This document shows positions 422-12,028 of a stretch of DNA of 64,000 nt, one piece after another. How positions within the stretch are numbered: the stretch's first letter is position 1; every line of letters begins with the position of its first letter. The position numbers and the translations under genes were made by a program. This DNA is from Leptolyngbya sp. CCY15150 (GTDB lineage Bacteria; Cyanobacteriota; Cyanobacteriia; RECH01). The notes beneath the pieces were generated by a model. That model was not told the DNA's origin. It made no database searches and worked only from the letters and a program-made list of their open reading frames with translations. The DNA lies in NCBI RefSeq assembly GCF_016888135.1, contig NZ_JACSWB010000157.1, positions 1 through 64,000 of the forward strand. The letters are read 5' to 3'.

Positions 422-3400
422 TCAGTGCATCTCATACTTACCCTCAGCCGTGATCACTTGATTTCGTCCTGCTGCCTTAGCCCGGTATAGGGCCGCATCA
501 GCTGATTGAATCACCGCTCCCCCAGTTGTGCCGTGATCGGGGAAAACGGCTACTCCTAAGGAGACCGTAAGATTTTCCAACGTTCGCCCTCCATAGGACA
601 GGCTGAGGTGATGGATGGCGTCACGAATTTTCTCGGCTTTAGCCAGGGCATCTATGAGGGAGGTTTCAGGGAGGACCAAGGTGAGTTCCTCACCGCCATA
701 GCGGCAAGCAATGTCAGACCCACGGATGTGGTCTCCGATCACCTGGGCAATTGCCTTCAAAACGAAATCTCCGGCATCGTGCCCATGGGTATCATTAAAG
801 ACCTTGAAATGGTCAACATCGATCATGACCACAGCGGTCGGGTATTGATGTCGCTGGGCGCGGGCGATCTCAGCCTGTAGGGATTCTTCTAGGTAACGGC
901 GGTTGAAAAGCCCCGTTAGGGCATCACGAATACTCTGATTTTGTAGAGTTTCGCGCAAGTTCAGGTTAGCGATCGCCAGACCCACCTGCTCTGCTACCGT
1001 GCGGGCTAGTTGCTGTTTGGGTAGGGGCAACCCTTCGGGACGCTTAGTGCTGAGGTAAAACATCCCCAGGGTTTCTCCCTGGGCGATCATGGGGATGCAC
1101 AGGGTAACGAGGTCGGGCGGTGCGTCCTTAATGTGGTTGCAGTACAAACCTTGCCGGTCGGGAGTGATGCTGTGCCACCGGCCCCGTCGTAGAGCCCAGC
1201 AATCGTGGGGCTGAAAATCGGCAAGGGAGTGGAGGCTATCTCCCCAGCGGACTACGGCTTCGACGCGATTGCGAGATGCGCAGGTGATATGGAAACTGCC
1301 GGAGCAATTGGGAAACATAGGCTGTACCAGGGTTGAGATCACCGCACAGGCTTCTTCGAGGGTGCGGCAGGCCTGCAAAAAGTCGCTGGTTTCGCTCAGC
1401 ATCAGCATTTCATCATTGCGCTGACGCAGCTCCCTGAGGTGGACTTCCATGGCACTGTTGACCTGCTGTAGGGCTTGCTCAGAGGCTTTAACCGCCGAGA
1501 TGTCGCGGAAGGTGACGGCAAATCCATCGCCCAGCGGAACGGCAATATTTTCAAACCAGGTATCAAGGCCATCGTGCTGATAGTGAAACTGCCGCCGGAC
1601 GGGGGTTCCCGTTTCAACTACCTGAATATAAAGGTCAAATAGCCCATCGGTGCGGTTGCCGGGTAAAACGTCCAGCATTCGTTGACCGATTAACTCATGC
1701 AGGGGTTTGTTGACAGACTGGCAGGCGGTGGGGTTACTCAACGTCCACGCAAAGTCAACAATCTGGCCCTGGTCATCGCGAAGGGAACGGAAGGCCATAA
1801 CGCCATCGAGGGAGCTATTCAAGATGCCGCTGAGCTGAAGTTCCGACTGTTTTAGGGCCTCTTGGGTGTTAATCAGGGGCGTAATATCTGTTAATAGCCC
1901 AATCACCCCTTGCCATACACCTTCTTGATCAAAGATAGGCGTTCCCGAAATCAGGGTCCACAGATCAGAACCGTCTTGACGGAGAAATTTGAAGGAATGT
2001 TGTTCCTGGATTCCCTCCTGGCGGCGCGCGAAATAGTCTTGGGCCGTGACTTGATCGTCAGGGGTCATGAAATCTAAGAACGACTGGTGCTGCATCGTTT
2101 CGATGTCATAGCCTAACATCTCCGCCATGCGCTGGTTGACAAAGGTGGTCTTACTGTCAGCATCCAGTATCCAGACCCCCTCCAGGGTAGTTTCGATGAT
2201 ATTGCGGTAGCGGGCCTCGCTCTCCTGCAGGGCTAGTTCCTGGCGTTTGTTGTCGGATATATCGAGATGGCTGCCCACCATGCGTACCACCTGGCCATCG
2301 GCATCCTTCAGGTGGATGGCGCGGGACAGAACGAAAACCGTCGAGCCCTCTTTGTGGCGGAACCGCTGCACCGTTTTAAATTGGTCTACTTGGCCGCTGT
2401 TGTAGTCTTCGACCAGTTGTAGGGCCGCGATGCGGTCTGCTTCAAAAATGACCGAATCCCACATCTCAAAGGTATTGTCAAGTTCATGGTCGCCATAGCC
2501 GAGCATCTCTTTCCACCGGGGGGAGAAGTAGACGTCGTTGGTGGTGATATCCCAATCCCAGAAGCCTTCGGAGGAGGCTTGCAGCACCAGTTCTAGCTGG
2601 TCTTTGGCCTGTTTTAGATCCTGGGCAGATTGTTTGATGGAGGTGATATCGAAGTTGACACCAATTAGCCGCTGGGCCTCTCCGTGCTCGTTCCGCTGAA
2701 TTTTGGCACCAGACTGCACCCAATGGACTGAACCGTCAGACCACACAATGCGGTACTGAATGTCGCAACTGTGGTTCTTCGGGTCAGCTAGACATTGTTC
2801 GCTCTGGGCCTGCACCGTGGCGGCATCGTCGGGATGGAGGCGGTTTTTGAAGTCCTGTTGGTGGCCAGAAAAGTCCTCTGGAGCGAGGCCGTAAATCTGG
2901 AGCATACGGTCATCCCAGAGCAGGGTGTCGGTGACAACATCCCACTCCCAGATGCCGATTTGGGCCGACTGTACGGCCAGTGTGAGCCGGGTGGATAGAT
3001 TTTGCAGTTGGATTTCAGCTTGTTTGCGGCTAGTAATGTCCCGCACCATCACCAGCACTTCACTGTCTGAAAGCGGCGAGATGCGGGCTTCTTCGTAGTA
3101 GGTTTGGTGGTTTTGGGTAAAGGAATATTCTTGTTTTTGCGGCTGTCCGGTAGAGATGGCGATTTGTGCCAGATGAATACGTTCCTGGCCGATGTCAGTA
3201 GGCATAATGTCGAGAACGCTGTGCCCCTTAATGGGGTCTTCGTCTTCAAGACCTAAGCAGTGCACATTGCCAGTATTGATGACATCGATCTGCACGCCAT
3301 CCTGCCGCATCCGGACTAAAAAGTCGGGAATGGCCTGAATTAAGGCGCGATTGGTTGCTTCGCTCTGCCGTAGGGATTCTTCGGCCTGTTGACGCTGGGT

Positions 3401-6400
3401 GATATCAATATGGCAGCCAATCATCCGTAGAGGGTTGCCCGCGTCATCCCAGTCGATCACCTGCCCTGAGCAAAGAATCCAAACGGTAGAACCCTCTTTA
3501 TGGCGATAGCGCACCTCGTTGTAGTAAGGCTCTGTGCCGTGGCTCTGGACGTGGCGGTTGAACTGTTCCAGTACCACCGGCAGATCTTCTGGAAAGATCA
3601 GGTCTTGCCAGGTCTGGGGAGAATTAATCAGCTCGTGGTCTGCGTAACCCAGCATTTGCTTAAAGCCAGGACTCAAATATTCCTCATCATCAGCGATATG
3701 CCAGTCCCAGTAACCCGCCAGCACGATGTTTAAAATTTGCTCCAGCAGGCTCAATTCTTGCTCGGTCTGTTGGGCCTGCTGCCGCTCGGTTTCAATCTGT
3801 TTGTGTTCGGTAATATCGGTGATGGTGCCAACATAGCCTAATAGATCGCCAGCGGCGTTGTACTCGGCCACGGCCTGTCCATACACCCATGACACCGTGC
3901 CATCCGTAGACTGGAAACGGTATTCCAGTTCAAACGGTCTTCCCTGCTGGGCTGCTTGGGTCCAGGTACTAAACACGGCTTCCCGATCATCGGGGTAAAG
4001 CGCCTGTGCCCATCCTTCCCCCAGGGCCTCTTGCTGGGTTAACCCGGCAAGCTGTTCCCACCGTTGATTGGTGTAGATGCAGTGGCCATTGGCATCAGTA
4101 CGGAAAATGCCTACGGGCACCGCTGCTACTAAGCTGGCGTAGCGTTGCTCACTATCATGGAGGCGTGTTATGGCTTTGGCTTTTTCGCGCTCCAGCTGCT
4201 TTTTCTCCGTCAGGTCTTGCACGATGTAGGAGCAACGGGGGCGGTCATCGTTGCCCTGACCCACAAAGGACACCGTCACCAGCAGATTGTGTTGATCGGC
4301 CGGCGTGATGTGGGTGTAATCGAACTGTACCGGGCGCTGCTGCTGTTGGCTCTGGCGATAGTGTGTCAGCCAAAGTTGGATCACCTCAGCCGGTAACCCT
4401 ACCTCGCTGGCCCAATGGTTGGCCAAGGCGGCGGCGGTCAGTCCAAAAAAGGAAAGCGCTGCCGGATTGTCGGACAGATGGAGAATGTCATGATCGGAAA
4501 TTTCCACCAGCCCCATCAGCAGCGGCGAGGTGTCGTAAAAAATTCGCAGGGTTTCGGCCTGGTCACGAATCAGGGTTTCGGCCTGTTGCTGGTCAGTAAT
4601 GTCGATGGCGATCCCGCCAACTGCGGTGACTTGCCCCTCGGTATACACCGGGAACTTCCGCACCAGAAAAGTATGGAGGGTGCCATCGGGGGCTGTGCCC
4701 GGTTCGATGGTTTCAACCACCTGCCCAGTGTCTAATACCTGTTGGTTGGCCTGCCGATAGGTCTGGGCAAACTCGGGCGGGAATAGATCGGCAATGACCT
4801 GACCCAGGGCCGCTGTTTTGCTCTGCCCCACAAAGGTAAACCAGGCCTCGTTGCCGTATTCAACCCGCCCCTCGCGGCTGACGATCCAGCTCAGCAGGGG
4901 GGCATTGTCCATAAAGCGCTGAAAACGATCCTGGCTAGCTCTCAGGGCGCTTTCAGCTTGCTGGCGCAGGCGTTCATCGCGCTTTTGGGCGGTAATGTCG
5001 CGGGCAATTTTTGAGGCCCCGACGACTGCACCGTTTTCGCCATAAATCGGCGAGACGGTGAGGGAGACATCCACGAGGTGCCCATCTTGGTGTCGCCGCT
5101 GGGTTTCGTAGGTTTTGACTCGCTGACCCTGGCGAATCCGCGCCAGAATTTGGGCGGCCTCATCCCGATGATCAGGGGGAATGATGGCGGTAATTGGCTG
5201 GCCGATTATCTCTGCGGCGGTGTAGCCAAAGATGGCTTCGGCGGCGTGGTTCCAACTGGTGACGATGCCATCGGACGTTTTGCTGATAATGGCATCTTGC
5301 GACGACGCCACGATCGCCCCAAGCTGTTGCAGCCGAGCCTGGTCTCGTAAGCGGTCGGCGGTGGCCTGCTGGCGCTCGGTTATGTCCAGAATCACGGCTA
5401 AAAAGCGTGACTCAGCCCCGTGATGGGTTAACTGCAGGTGCACATCCACCGGGTAACGGCTGCCGTCTGACCGTTGATGGACGCTTTCGAAGTTCATTTT
5501 GGCGACTTCCTGGCGGCGCAGGGGGGTGATCAGGGTTTCAAACTCTGGCAACGTCAGGTCTGGTTTGATATCAACGGCGGTCATCTGCTGCAGTTGCTCT
5601 AGGCTGTAGCCCAGGTTGCGCAGCCCCCCCTGGTTGACGTACTCAAATTTCAACGTGTCGGCATTGAACAGGTAAATTTCGTTCAGGCTGGCTTCGAGCA
5701 TGTTGAGCAGGCGGGTGCGATCGCCCTCGGCCTGGAGGCGATCGCTAATATCCACCCCAGAGGGAATCAGGTGGGTAATTTCTCCTGTCCTGGGGTGTCG
5801 TAGCGGCTTCAGGGCGAAGTCGATGGTGATGAGCTGACCGCCCTGCATCTGCACCGGAATATCAAAGTGCGTCATGGTTCCCTGGTTCGCAGCTTCAATA
5901 GCCGATCGAATGGTGGCCTGGGCTTCGGAAGAGTAGGCCCACCAGTAGGCGTCGGCAAAGGGTTTACCAATCACATCGTCGCGGGTGAGACCAGCCATGT
6001 CTAGGAGAGCCTGGTTGGATTCCACTAAAATACCGTCGGGGGTCATCACCCCCACAAAGGCAAACAGACTGTTGAGCACCTGTTGTAAAAAGGCTTCACG
6101 CTGAATCACCTCAGCCGCCACCTGATTACGCTCTTGAATCTTGGCAATCAGCTTTTGATTCACCGCTCGCAGGGTACGGTTGGCGTCTTCCAACTTTTGA
6201 TTGGCTGCTTCCAGAGCCTGGTTGACCTGGGCCAGTTCGCGGGTGCGAGCCGCGACGTCGGCTTCTAGGGTGGTGTTTGCAATTTTCAGTTGGTCAATCA
6301 ATGCTGCCTGGTGAATGGCAATGCCCACCTGCATCGCCAGCAGTTGTAGCCCTTCGATCTCCACATCCTGCCAGGGGCGGGGAGCCTGACAGTGGTGGGC

Positions 6401-6874
6401 AATTAGCAGGCCCCAGAGAGTATTCTCCTTTAGGATGGGAATCACCAGATTGGCCTGCACCTGAAAGCTGGCTAAAAACTCGGCATGGCAGGGGGTGAGG
6501 TTGGCTTTAGCAATATCTTCGACAGCGAAATAGCGTTTCTCCTGGTAGGGTTCTAGCCAGCTGGATTCAAAGCAGGGATCGTGAACTACCCGATCAACCA
6601 CCGACCACTGGGGCTCAGAGACAGACTCGACCACCACACGACCGCTCCAATCGGGTTCGAACCGGTAGAGTAAGACGCGATCGCACCCCAGCAGCTGATG
6701 CACTTCATCCACCGTCGTCTGCAGGATTGCCCTCAGCTCTAGGGTCTGACGGATGCGCAGGGCAACCGCGTTAACCAGGTGATCCCAGGAGAGACAGGTC
6801 TCGAAGGTACGAACACACGTAGAGCATCCTGGGCTTGTCGTACAAGGCTTTTGGAACCCGACTGCGTCATTCAT
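422..6874 (-). CDS. DXCF-type cyanobacteriochrome / multi-PAS / GAF diguanylate cyclase
   Basis: This is a 2150-residue signalling protein. An N-terminal bilin-binding-type GAF (about residues 40-195) has the canonical chromophore pair Cys129-His130 ('TPCHAEFL') and a D99-P-C101-F motif, the second-cysteine signature of DXCF cyanobacteriochromes. A coiled coil (about 200-265) follows, then twelve PAS/PAC units recognisable by their 'DIT/DIS' ends, a second GAF, and a C-terminal GGDEF domain. The cyclase domain has DVDHFK metal ligands near 2019, an active-site GGEEL at 2060-2064 and an RxxD inhibitory site (RGSD, 2051-2054), so it should be catalytic. No EAL domain and no membrane segment were seen. 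Inferred role: light- and PAS-ligand-controlled c-di-GMP synthesis. The ATG at 6874 is the only well-placed start. The gene stands alone. Confidence 0.93.
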   Translation of the reverse strand: MNDAVGFQKPCTTSPGCSTCVRTFETCLSWDHLVNAVALRIRQTLELRAILQTTVDEVHQLLGCDRVLLYRFEPDWSGRVVVESVSEPQWSVVDRVVHDPCFESSWLEPYQEKRYFAVEDIAKANLTPCHAEFLASFQVQANLVIPILKENTLWGLLIAHHCQAPRPWQDVEIEGLQLLAMQVGIAIHQAALIDQLKIANTTLEADVAARTRELAQVNQALEAANQKLEDANRTLRAVNQKLIAKIQERNQVAAEVIQREAFLQQVLNSLFAFVGVMTPDGILVESNQALLDMAGLTRDDVIGKPFADAYWWAYSSEAQATIRSAIEAANQGTMTHFDIPVQMQGGQLITIDFALKPLRHPRTGEITHLIPSGVDISDRLQAEGDRTRLLNMLEASLNEIYLFNADTLKFEYVNQGGLRNLGYSLEQLQQMTAVDIKPDLTLPEFETLITPLRRQEVAKMNFESVHQRSDGSRYPVDVHLQLTHHGAESRFLAVILDITERQQATADRLRDQARLQQLGAIVASSQDAIISKTSDGIVTSWNHAAEAIFGYTAAEIIGQPITAIIPPDHRDEAAQILARIRQGQRVKTYETQRRHQDGHLVDVSLTVSPIYGENGAVVGASKIARDITAQKRDERLRQQAESALRASQDRFQRFMDNAPLLSWIVSREGRVEYGNEAWFTFVGQSKTAALGQVIADLFPPEFAQTYRQANQQVLDTGQVVETIEPGTAPDGTLHTFLVRKFPVYTEGQVTAVGGIAIDITDQQQAETLIRDQAETLRIFYDTSPLLMGLVEISDHDILHLSDNPAALSFFGLTAAALANHWASEVGLPAEVIQLWLTHYRQSQQQQRPVQFDYTHITPADQHNLLVTVSFVGQGNDDRPRCSYIVQDLTEKKQLEREKAKAITRLHDSEQRYASLVAAVPVGIFRTDANGHCIYTNQRWEQLAGLTQQEALGEGWAQALYPDDREAVFSTWTQAAQQGRPFELEYRFQSTDGTVSWVYGQAVAEYNAAGDLLGYVGTITDITEHKQIETERQQAQQTEQELSLLEQILNIVLAGYWDWHIADDEEYLSPGFKQMLGYADHELINSPQTWQDLIFPEDLPVVLEQFNRHVQSHGTEPYYNEVRYRHKEGSTVWILCSGQVIDWDDAGNPLRMIGCHIDITQRQQAEESLRQSEATNRALIQAIPDFLVRMRQDGVQIDVINTGNVHCLGLEDEDPIKGHSVLDIMPTDIGQERIHLAQIAISTGQPQKQEYSFTQNHQTYYEEARISPLSDSEVLVMVRDITSRKQAEIQLQNLSTRLTLAVQSAQIGIWEWDVVTDTLLWDDRMLQIYGLAPEDFSGHQQDFKNRLHPDDAATVQAQSEQCLADPKNHSCDIQYRIVWSDGSVHWVQSGAKIQRNEHGEAQRLIGVNFDITSIKQSAQDLKQAKDQLELVLQASSEGFWDWDITTNDVYFSPRWKEMLGYGDHELDNTFEMWDSVIFEADRIAALQLVEDYNSGQVDQFKTVQRFRHKEGSTVFVLSRAIHLKDADGQVVRMVGSHLDISDNKRQELALQESEARYRNIIETTLEGVWILDADSKTTFVNQRMAEMLGYDIETMQHQSFLDFMTPDDQVTAQDYFARRQEGIQEQHSFKFLRQDGSDLWTLISGTPIFDQEGVWQGVIGLLTDITPLINTQEALKQSELQLSGILNSSLDGVMAFRSLRDDQGQIVDFAWTLSNPTACQSVNKPLHELIGQRMLDVLPGNRTDGLFDLYIQVVETGTPVRRQFHYQHDGLDTWFENIAVPLGDGFAVTFRDISAVKASEQALQQVNSAMEVHLRELRQRNDEMLMLSETSDFLQACRTLEEACAVISTLVQPMFPNCSGSFHITCASRNRVEAVVRWGDSLHSLADFQPHDCWALRRGRWHSITPDRQGLYCNHIKDAPPDLVTLCIPMIAQGETLGMFYLSTKRPEGLPLPKQQLARTVAEQVGLAIANLNLRETLQNQSIRDALTGLFNRRYLEESLQAEIARAQRHQYPTAVVMIDVDHFKVFNDTHGHDAGDFVLKAIAQVIGDHIRGSDIACRYGGEELTLVLPETSLIDALAKAEKIRDAIHHLSLSYGGRTLENLTVSLGVAVFPDHGTTGGAVIQSADAALYRAKAAGRNQVITAEGKYEMH

Positions 6875-9638: not shown

Positions 9639-11477
9639 ATGACCAGAAACTGGGCCATCTGCATTGGTATTAACGATTACTACAACCTCCAGCCGCTTCA
9701 GTATGCGGTGCAGGATGCGATCGCTGTGCGAGATTTTTTTCTCACCACGGTCAAGTTCGAGCAGGTCTTTTACTTTGCCGATGATTCGCCGCCCATCCAG
9801 ACGCCTCGGGGAGAGATGCGATCGCTGCCCACGTTTGGCAACCTGAAGCGCTTTTTTCGGGAACGGTTTCAGCAACCGTTTTTGGAGACGGGGGACAATT
9901 TTTGGTTTTTCTTTGCCGGCCATGGCGAACTGCATGAGGGCCACGACTACCTGATGCCCATTGATGTGGATCCGGGCAATATTGCCGAAACGGCTCTGCG
10001 GGTGAGTGATGTGACCGCCTGTCTGCGCAACTGCGGAGCGGATAATACAATTTTGCTGTTGGATGCCTGCCGCAGCCAGGGTCGCCGTCAGGGGACGGGT
10101 CTGGGAACGGAGGAGCAGCAGGGGATGGTGACGATCTATAGCTGTAGCCCTCGGGAAGCGTCCTATGAACTTGAGGCGCTGGGGCACGGTTCCTTTACCC
10201 ATGCGCTGCTAGAGGGACTGACGCTTCAAGGGGCGAACAATTGCGCCACGGTGGAACGGTTGAACCTGCATCTGCGGTATCAGGTGCCGAACCTGAATGC
10301 CCGGCATGGCAAGCCAAAGCAGACGCCCTATACGGCCGTGGAGCCGCTGTCGAAGAATTATCTAATCTTGCTGCCAGAGCAGGCGACGGTGCAGGATGTG
10401 CTGACGCTGAAATCGGAAGCGCAGGATGCGGAGCTGAATAATCAGCTTGACTTGGCGAAACAGCTTTGGATTCGGGTGCTGGGAGCATCAAGGGCAGATC
10501 TTCAAGCTATTACTGCACTAGAGCGAATTGCTCTAAAGCGGGTTCGTGAATTCAGTTCTCCCAAGCCAACTTCCTCAGTAGCCGGACAGCGTAGCCAAGA
10601 GCGTGCTTCTACCCCCGTGGTTGAATTTGAGGTAGCAACGCTCGAAATTGCTCCAGGATTGTTTGGCTTGGGAACTAAGCTAGTCCGCCAGACTCGTCAG
10701 GGTCGCACTGAGTACCGTCAAGAATCGTTAGGTCAAGGGGTGACGCTAGATCTGATGTTGATGCCTAGCGGTACGTTTACTATGGGTTCTCCTGATGGTG
10801 AGGGATACAAGGACGAACAGCCCCAGCATTCAGTCACTATTGCGTCCTTTTGGATGGGCAAATATCCCGTGACCCAGAGTCAATGGCGTACTGTCTCAGC
10901 CCTGCCTAGGATCGAACGTGATCTTGATGTCGATCCAGCCAGCTTTAAGGGGGACAATCGCCCGGTGGAGAAAGTGAGCTGGTATGATGCGGTGGAATTT
11001 TGCCAGAGACTGTCAAAGCATACGGAGCGAGAGTATCGCCTGCCCAGTGAAGCCGAGTGGGAATATGCCTGTCGGGCTGGGACTACAACGCCATTTTATG
11101 TTGGCCCAACGATCACCACAGATTTAGCGAATTATAACGGCAACTATACCTATAGCAATGGTTCGACGGGAATCTATCGAGAAGAAACAACCGAGGTCGG
11201 CAGCTTCCCGGCTAACGCCTTTGGCCTGTACGATATGCATGGCAATGTTTGGGAGTGGTGCCTCGATCACTGGCATGATACGTATCAAGATGCTCCAACT
11301 GACGGCAGTGCTTGGGTGGCGGGTGGCGATAATGCTTTGAGAGTGCTGCGGGGCGGTTCGTGGAGCGGCAATCCGAGGAACTGCCGCTCGGCGAATCGTG
11401 GTTGGTTCGGTCCGGGCGGCAGGTACAACTACGTCGGGTTTCGGGTTGTCGTCTCCTCGGCGTGGGCTCTTTCATAG
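9639..11477 (+). CDS. orthocaspase fused to FGE/CLec-fold domain; likely DGR variable protein
   Basis: A 612-residue fusion. Residues 1-240 are a caspase-like (peptidase C14) domain with the catalytic dyad His95 ('FFAGHGE') and Cys144 ('LLLDACRS'). A helical linker (about 245-330) leads to a formylglycine-generating-enzyme-type, C-type-lectin-fold domain (about 365-605) with family marks 'PSGTFTMGS', 'YRLPSEAEWEYACR', 'GLYDMHGNVWEW' and 'RVLRGGSW'. Such FGE domains usually act as binding modules, and in cyanobacteria they are frequent targets of diversity-generating retroelements. The last 40 codons show that signature (separate entry). Likely role: regulated proteolysis or self-killing triggered by a variable receptor domain. 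A Pepco-like gene follows 173 bp downstream. No signal peptide is present, so it is cytoplasmic. ATG 9639 is a plausible start. Confidence 0.93.
   Translation: MTRNWAICIGINDYYNLQPLQYAVQDAIAVRDFFLTTVKFEQVFYFADDSPPIQTPRGEMRSLPTFGNLKRFFRERFQQPFLETGDNFWFFFAGHGELHEGHDYLMPIDVDPGNIAETALRVSDVTACLRNCGADNTILLLDACRSQGRRQGTGLGTEEQQGMVTIYSCSPREASYELEALGHGSFTHALLEGLTLQGANNCATVERLNLHLRYQVPNLNARHGKPKQTPYTAVEPLSKNYLILLPEQATVQDVLTLKSEAQDAELNNQLDLAKQLWIRVLGASRADLQAITALERIALKRVREFSSPKPTSSVAGQRSQERASTPVVEFEVATLEIAPGLFGLGTKLVRQTRQGRTEYRQESLGQGVTLDLMLMPSGTFTMGSPDGEGYKDEQPQHSVTIASFWMGKYPVTQSQWRTVSALPRIERDLDVDPASFKGDNRPVEKVSWYDAVEFCQRLSKHTEREYRLPSEAEWEYACRAGTTTPFYVGPTITTDLANYNGNYTYSNGSTGIYREETTEVGSFPANAFGLYDMHGNVWEWCLDHWHDTYQDAPTDGSAWVAGGDNALRVLRGGSWSGNPRNCRSANRGWFGPGGRYNYVGFRVVVSSAWALS
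11364..11450 (+). other. candidate DGR variable region (VR) at the 3' end of the caspase-FGE gene
   Basis: Codons 576-598 encode S-G-N-P-R-N-C-R-S-A-N-R-G-W-F-G-P-G-G-R-Y-N-Y, where related proteins typically carry Asn-rich stretches. Every unusual codon can be derived from an A-containing codon by changing adenines only: AGC and GGC from AAC, GGT from AAT, TGG from AGG, TTC from AAC, GGC from GAC, TAC from AAC. The invariant codons between them (CCG, TGC CGC TCG, CGT) contain no A. An A-poor, GC-rich block, GTCGGGTTTCGGGTTGTC (11433-11450), follows at the place of the initiation-of-mutagenic-homing site. No template repeat or reverse transcriptase was found in the window. Confidence 0.65.
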
Positions 11478-11650: not shown

Positions 11651-12028
11651 ATGGCAGACGGCGATCAGCTTTGGATTTTGACCGAGATTGAAGACATCGA
11701 CGAAACCGTGATCATTGAAGGGCAGCGATCGGGTCGGCGGGATACGGGAGGCGGCTTTGATCCAGTCGACACCGTGGAGCAAACCACCACCGTCACGCGC
11801 CGCAAGCGGGTATCGATTGATGCTCAGCTTGTGAAAACTCAGATGGAAAGTATGCTGGCGATCGTCAATGACCTCTTCAGCCAAGCGGAGACCACCACGG
11901 GATTGCGCCTCGATGAAGTGGAATTGTCGGTGGATATTAGTGCCGAGGGTCAGATCAGCATCATCGGCAATGGTGGCAAGCTGGGCAATAGCGGCGGCAT
12001 TAAACTGAAATTCACCCGTCCGGTGTAG
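11651..12028 (+). CDS. small Pepco/Trypco-like effector-associated protein
   Basis: A 125-residue soluble protein starting 'MADGDQLWILTEIEDIDETVIIE'. A short variable loop (about 28-45) precedes a helix 'DAQLVKTQMESMLAIVNDLFSQAE' and a strand-rich end 'LDEVELSVDISAEGQISIIGNGG....GGIKLKFTRP'. This layout resembles the small effector-associated domains (Pepco, Trypco1) that occur next to caspase- and trypsin-like peptidases in bacterial conflict systems. The neighbouring caspase-FGE gene on the same strand, 173 bp upstream, supports that reading. No catalytic motif is visible. Its job may be to link sensor and protease or to scaffold their assembly; this is inference. The assignment is by sequence pattern. 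Confidence 0.6.
   Translation: MADGDQLWILTEIEDIDETVIIEGQRSGRRDTGGGFDPVDTVEQTTTVTRRKRVSIDAQLVKTQMESMLAIVNDLFSQAETTTGLRLDEVELSVDISAEGQISIIGNGGKLGNSGGIKLKFTRPV

Follow-up and report, generated by a model that had tools for sequence, protein, structure and literature searches.

The 64,000-nucleotide stretch of Leptolyngbya sp. CCY15150 DNA analyzed here (the window) comes from contig C157 of the source genome, G000. Its forward strand carries a caspase-FGE gene (positions 9639-11477) that encodes a variable protein of 612 residues, with a Peptidase_C14 (caspase) domain at residues 3-239 and an FGE-sulfatase/CLec-type domain at residues 372-604. The predicted protein has His95 within AGHG and Cys144 within DACR, which are the motifs expected for a caspase dyad. 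The FGE domain aligned with TvpA, the Treponema variable protein (PDB 2y3c), at E = 4.6e-26, and this alignment runs through the variable region (VR) at the end of the protein. In the alignment with human SUMF1, one cysteine of the CxxxxC motif is matched by Cys and the other by Ser. The domain thus appears to lack one member of the catalytic cysteine pair found in true FGE, in a part of the SUMF1 alignment that is gapped. The next gene downstream, also on the forward strand (11651-12028), encodes a Pepco domain (PF24393). This gene adjoins the caspase-FGE gene, as in other Pepco/caspase pairs, and its product is presumed to act as a partner or adaptor of the caspase. Elsewhere in the window, positions 422-6874 of the reverse strand encode a signaling protein of 2150 residues, which we read as comprising GAF, many PAS repeats and GGDEF. 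Another contig of the same genome (G000:C170:165622-165984) shares 83% identity with residues 1-122 of the window caspase and contains two in-frame TAA codons, and we read it as a degenerate duplicate of the caspase portion.

The preliminary description proposed that the gene ends in the VR of a diversity-generating retroelement (DGR). The sequence in question sits at the 3' end of a CLec/FGE-type gene, as DGR variable regions require. Its variable codons, 576-599, extend from AGC (11364-11366) to GTC (11433-11435) on the forward strand, so the start originally placed at 11364 is exact. They are followed by an A-free constant segment from 11436 to about 11467 that is nearly identical to the tail of a VR-type FGE gene in a same-genus genome (G001:C188). 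We placed the breakpoints of the whole template-copied block, comprising the VR and its constant 3' flank, by three-way comparison of the window, the syntenic orthologue from another genome of the genus (G002) and G001:C188. Relative to the orthologue, the block spans about 11343-11467 of the forward strand, and its constant 3' part, GGGTTTCGGGTTGTCGTCTCCTCGGCGTGG, reaches about 11467. The A-free segment is a candidate homing (IMH-type) region. A homing boundary had been suggested near the A-poor motif GTCGGGTTTCGGGTTGTC; the A-free 3' block is indeed present, but the presumed boundary lies about 15-18 nt farther on.

To examine the adenine pattern, we built an inferred template, placing A at each odd position, and searched 390 genomes of the class with it. 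It matched in 73 genomes, where most of the top-ranking loci adjoin a DGR reverse transcriptase (RT) and Avd. The best of these templates (L067), located beside bAvd and RT in a genome outside the genus (G029) that belongs to another family of the class, provides a heterologous reference. Comparison of this template with the window VR showed that 20/33 adenines but only 6/60 other bases are altered (p = 3.9e-7), and no non-A base of the template is replaced by A in the VR. The match is specific to this site: positions 11358-11450 have 6 non-A mismatches to the template, compared to 27 for the next best 93-mer on either strand of the window and a median of 44. We also compared the window VR with G001:C188, which carries the same type of tail. 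The two genes differ at 21/33 template-A columns and at 5/60 others (p = 2.6e-8), and this test is independent because the template columns were taken from a third genome outside the genus. Differences between these genes at codon positions 1, 2 and 3 number 12, 11 and 3 within the VR, but 12, 11 and 17 just upstream. As a positive control, the template of G001 was compared with its two cis VRs, which have changes at 13/30 and 15/30 adenines and at 0/72 non-A positions. The pattern against both L067 and G001:C188 therefore bears out the identification of the gene's 3' end as a DGR variable region, and changes at other bases as frequent as those at A, which the preliminary description had named as evidence to the contrary, are clearly not what we found. 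The earlier account of the codons, in which adenine changes alone explain every odd one, needs correction: measured against the nearest template identified, a heterologous one, non-A changes are required for two of the GGT codons and for one CCG. These sequence comparisons strongly support the view that a DGR wrote the 3' block of the caspase-FGE gene.

The VR of the window gene is one of six in the genome. G000 contains FGE genes with VR-type tails on C157 (the window gene), C123 (two genes), C214 (two genes) and C270, and their tails group into three template lineages. The three VRs of lineage C have a near-identical backbone and differ almost exclusively at codon positions 1 and 2, in genes that are strongly diverged upstream. 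We considered whether ordinary positive selection, acting on a loop of the FGE domain that binds ligand, could have produced such differences with no DGR involved. Binding loops do diversify, and the lack of a template in G000 fits this explanation. However, the differences are confined to the A columns of an independent template (p between about 1e-7 and 1e-8), the block shows almost no synonymous change between paralogues although the upstream sequence is strongly diverged, and homologues in other genomes own perfect cis templates. We regard selection without a DGR as extremely improbable.

A comparison of the same locus in a sister genome, which had been suggested at the outset, showed that the VR of the G002 orthologue differs entirely from the window VR. 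The contig G002:C778 carries the syntenic caspase-FGE orthologue, the Pepco gene and the next gene with 91.8% DNA identity over 3.35 kb, but identity to the window falls to 58-68% in two 60-base bins over the VR block. Mosaic sites tell the same story: the window sides with G002 over G001:C188 by 40:7 upstream of the block and by 15:1 downstream, whereas within 11364-11467 it sides with G001:C188 over G002 by 26:7. Because backbone codons changed along with the variable codons, the window and G002 orthologues were last written from different templates. A tract of roughly 100-125 bp with conserved flanks could also be made by homologous recombination or horizontal transfer from a VR-bearing FGE gene that had been diversified elsewhere, with no local retrohoming, and the match between the block tail and G001:C188 is in keeping with such an origin. 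However, plain tract transfer from G001:C188 is ruled out by its different variable bases. We found no donor sharing the variable bases of the window VR, and the sole gene with the same backbone differs at 21 of the 33 template-A columns, such that further DGR action would still be needed. We consider arrival of the block by recombination improbable, and simple gene conversion, like ordinary positive selection, was ranked low.

The preliminary description further proposed that the DGR acts in trans from elsewhere in the genome. The G000 assembly (304 contigs, 99.96% complete) does not support this proposal. It contains no DGR RT, and the RT of G001 used as a query matched nothing in it. The sole RT found is an AbiA-type defense RT of 647 residues (G000:C143:29359-29868). 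No cognate template or template-like sequence was detected in the assembly by a pattern search that does detect the template of G001: with one mismatch allowed, GGNTCNTGGAAYAAYAAY occurs at two places in G001 and nowhere in G000 or G002. G002, an independent assembly, is likewise without a DGR RT and without a template. No cognate template was found in the genus, family or order (four genomes) or in the 390 genomes of the class, where all matches are heterologous, and a search of viral contigs with the exact pattern gave no match. Thus, the A-substituted template copy that had been anticipated is formally missing from the G000 assembly. This absence counts against current action in trans, which is not supported, and leaves past DGR authorship standing. 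Under a published definition (PMC7517822), a remote variable protein must share at least 50% identity in its VR with a DGR gene of its own organism; the window gene has no such counterpart because the G000 assembly has no DGR.

Three other candidates were rejected. An RT at G002:C606 was read from its sequence as a fusion with a Cas1-like domain. The long RT open frame at G002:C1154 (L049) is similar to eukaryotic LINEs and probably reflects contamination of the G002 assembly. A 21-bp match at G000:C167 to sequence upstream of the template proved to be ordinary coding-like sequence. Separately, genome G003 contains an intergenic FGE C-terminal remnant with template-like sequence (G003:C280:20574-20680), and no RT match was found in that genome.

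The third genome of the genus retains the machinery. G001:C128 (L051) carries a complete DGR in the order FGE, Avd, RT, template, FGE; its Avd was confirmed by NF033474 and bAvd, and its targets differ at adenines alone. The corresponding loci, G000:C214 and G002:C1048, keep the two FGE genes and an FHA gene, but the Avd, RT and template are absent and about 80-130 bp stand in their place. This difference could reflect either loss in the G000/G002 lineage or gain in G001. It could be argued that the window gene is an active remote target whose RT and cognate template are unassembled or on an unsampled plasmid, and which is still being rewritten in trans. Cyanobacteria commonly carry remote variable proteins served by a DGR at another site in the genome (PMC7517822), DGRs of the same clade, which is common in this group and consists of bAvd, RT and template, also occur on cyanobacterial plasmids, the VR is fully different from that of the syntenic orthologue, and an assembly in 304 contigs leaves room for a missing locus. 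Set against this, a nearly complete genome has no RT, no template pattern and no Avd-RT cassette at the locus used in G001, the same searches do detect RT, cassette and template in G001, and G002 is also without RT and template. We therefore judge an active remote system to be unlikely.

Our favored explanation is that the window VR, although genuinely the product of a DGR, is now an orphan, its writer and template having been lost or left unassembled, and we hold this to be probable. A past DGR with bAvd, RT and template would have copied template RNA with adenine-specific errors, and the cDNA would have been pasted over about 11343-11467, which would have renewed the binding face of the FGE/C-type-lectin-like domain. 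The preliminary description envisaged a caspase with a variable ligand-binding face, and this too is strongly supported, as the variable positions match DGR templates and the predicted domain is related to TvpA. The protein probably serves as the sensor-effector of a Pepco-associated conflict (defense) module, in which binding of ligand to the variable FGE face would control the caspase effector, the VR would set specificity and Pepco would be the partner. What the data show directly is the adenine pattern, the mosaic block, the lack of RT and template in the assembly and the cis DGRs next to homologues; from these we infer loss of the writer, as opposed to an assembly gap, as well as ligand sensing, control of the protease and a role for the caspase-FGE protein in defense. 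Without a writer, the present specificity would be passed on as it is, and the present variant has most likely become fixed, barring the re-entry of a DGR. The orphan reading has its limits, in that the closest template is heterologous with 6 non-A mismatches and an assembly of 304 contigs could miss an RT locus. In addition, the VR of the G002 orthologue is wholly different while the lineage-C backbone is shared, which places rewriting around or after the split between G000 and G002 and thus requires either recent loss of the writer or a writer that has escaped view.

Caspase-FGE homologues of full length occur widely among cyanobacteria. In Fischerella sp. PCC 9431 (L109), Avd, RT and a template come after the caspase-FGE gene, and this template departs from the VR at 20 adenines and at no other base. 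Three Nostocaceae loci (L128-L130) have a template just downstream of the caspase-FGE gene, with 11-15 adenine changes and no non-A changes. A Pepco-like gene lies near 43 of the 62 retrieved loci that encode a caspase-like N-terminus. In other genomes, members of this family thus lie immediately beside such a DGR, and the window locus looks like the same module without its writer. The Fischerella locus resembles it in gene architecture, in the Pepco-like gene nearby and in an adenine-derived VR that ends the FGE domain, but has writer and template adjacent, whereas the window locus has neither. Comparison of the lists of matches showed that, of the 73 genomes containing a template- or VR-like match, 16 gave none for the RT. 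Orphan VRs may therefore not be rare among cyanobacteria, though some of the 16 will be drafts or plain FGE genes.

Treponema denticola, the source of TvpA, belongs to a bacterial phylum other than that of the window organism. TvpA shares with the window protein an FGE-related fold and a C-terminal VR, but the matched chain has no caspase domain. Orthocaspase-CLec variable proteins and remote targets were already described in 2020 (PMC7517822). Like the window gene, these combine a caspase-type peptidase with a C-terminal CLec/FGE domain and a 3'-terminal VR, and their paralogues are dispersed from the DGR; the remote targets were assigned to a DGR in the same genome, whereas the window genome has neither DGR RT nor template. 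The DGR-diversified conflict systems of Dore et al. 2024 (PMC10907252) share the idea of an FGE/CLec antigen sensor, peptidase effectors and adaptor domains. Unlike those systems, the window holds a two-gene caspase-FGE and Pepco unit with no MoxR or vWA neighbors. Adenine hypermutation has been observed in a cultured cyanobacterium (PMC12691664), and decay of DGR loci by transposons has been reported (PMC10907252). Thus, the mechanism is already known, and what is added here is a well-resolved orphan case together with template switching between orthologues.

The second FGE gene on C214 (FGE2) behaves differently from the window gene. Between G000 and G002, its VR has 0 nonsynonymous and 2 synonymous differences in 34 codons, compared to 18 nonsynonymous and 29 synonymous differences in the 247 codons upstream. 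This VR is frozen between the two genomes. The genus thus offers a natural before-and-after experiment, in which one species keeps a DGR with perfect adenine signatures and two keep the targets with no writer; of these targets, one has stayed frozen across species, and a different template has overwritten another. Whether receptors made by a DGR stay useful after loss of the mutator can now be tested, as can caspase-FGE proteins as diversifiable sensors in cyanobacterial defense. More tentatively, and with somewhat less than even confidence, we suggest that receptors were kept while the mutator was dropped: six VR genes from at least three template lineages would be fixed on protease and conflict genes and could be rewritten whenever horizontal transfer brought a DGR back, a given VR being overwritten from different templates in sister species. 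The neighbors of the FGE genes on C123 and C214 include VMAP, trypsin- or caspase-type peptidase, Trypco1 and MoxR-like AAA genes, a setting that has been proposed for diversifiable antigen sensors (PMC10907252). The loci on C214 (L056, 1896-8325) and C123 (L055, 140-7389) are VMAP-type conflict-system loci with two VR-tailed FGE genes each, and both contain a peptidase-VMAP gene and an AAA ATPase gene that we read as MoxR-like.
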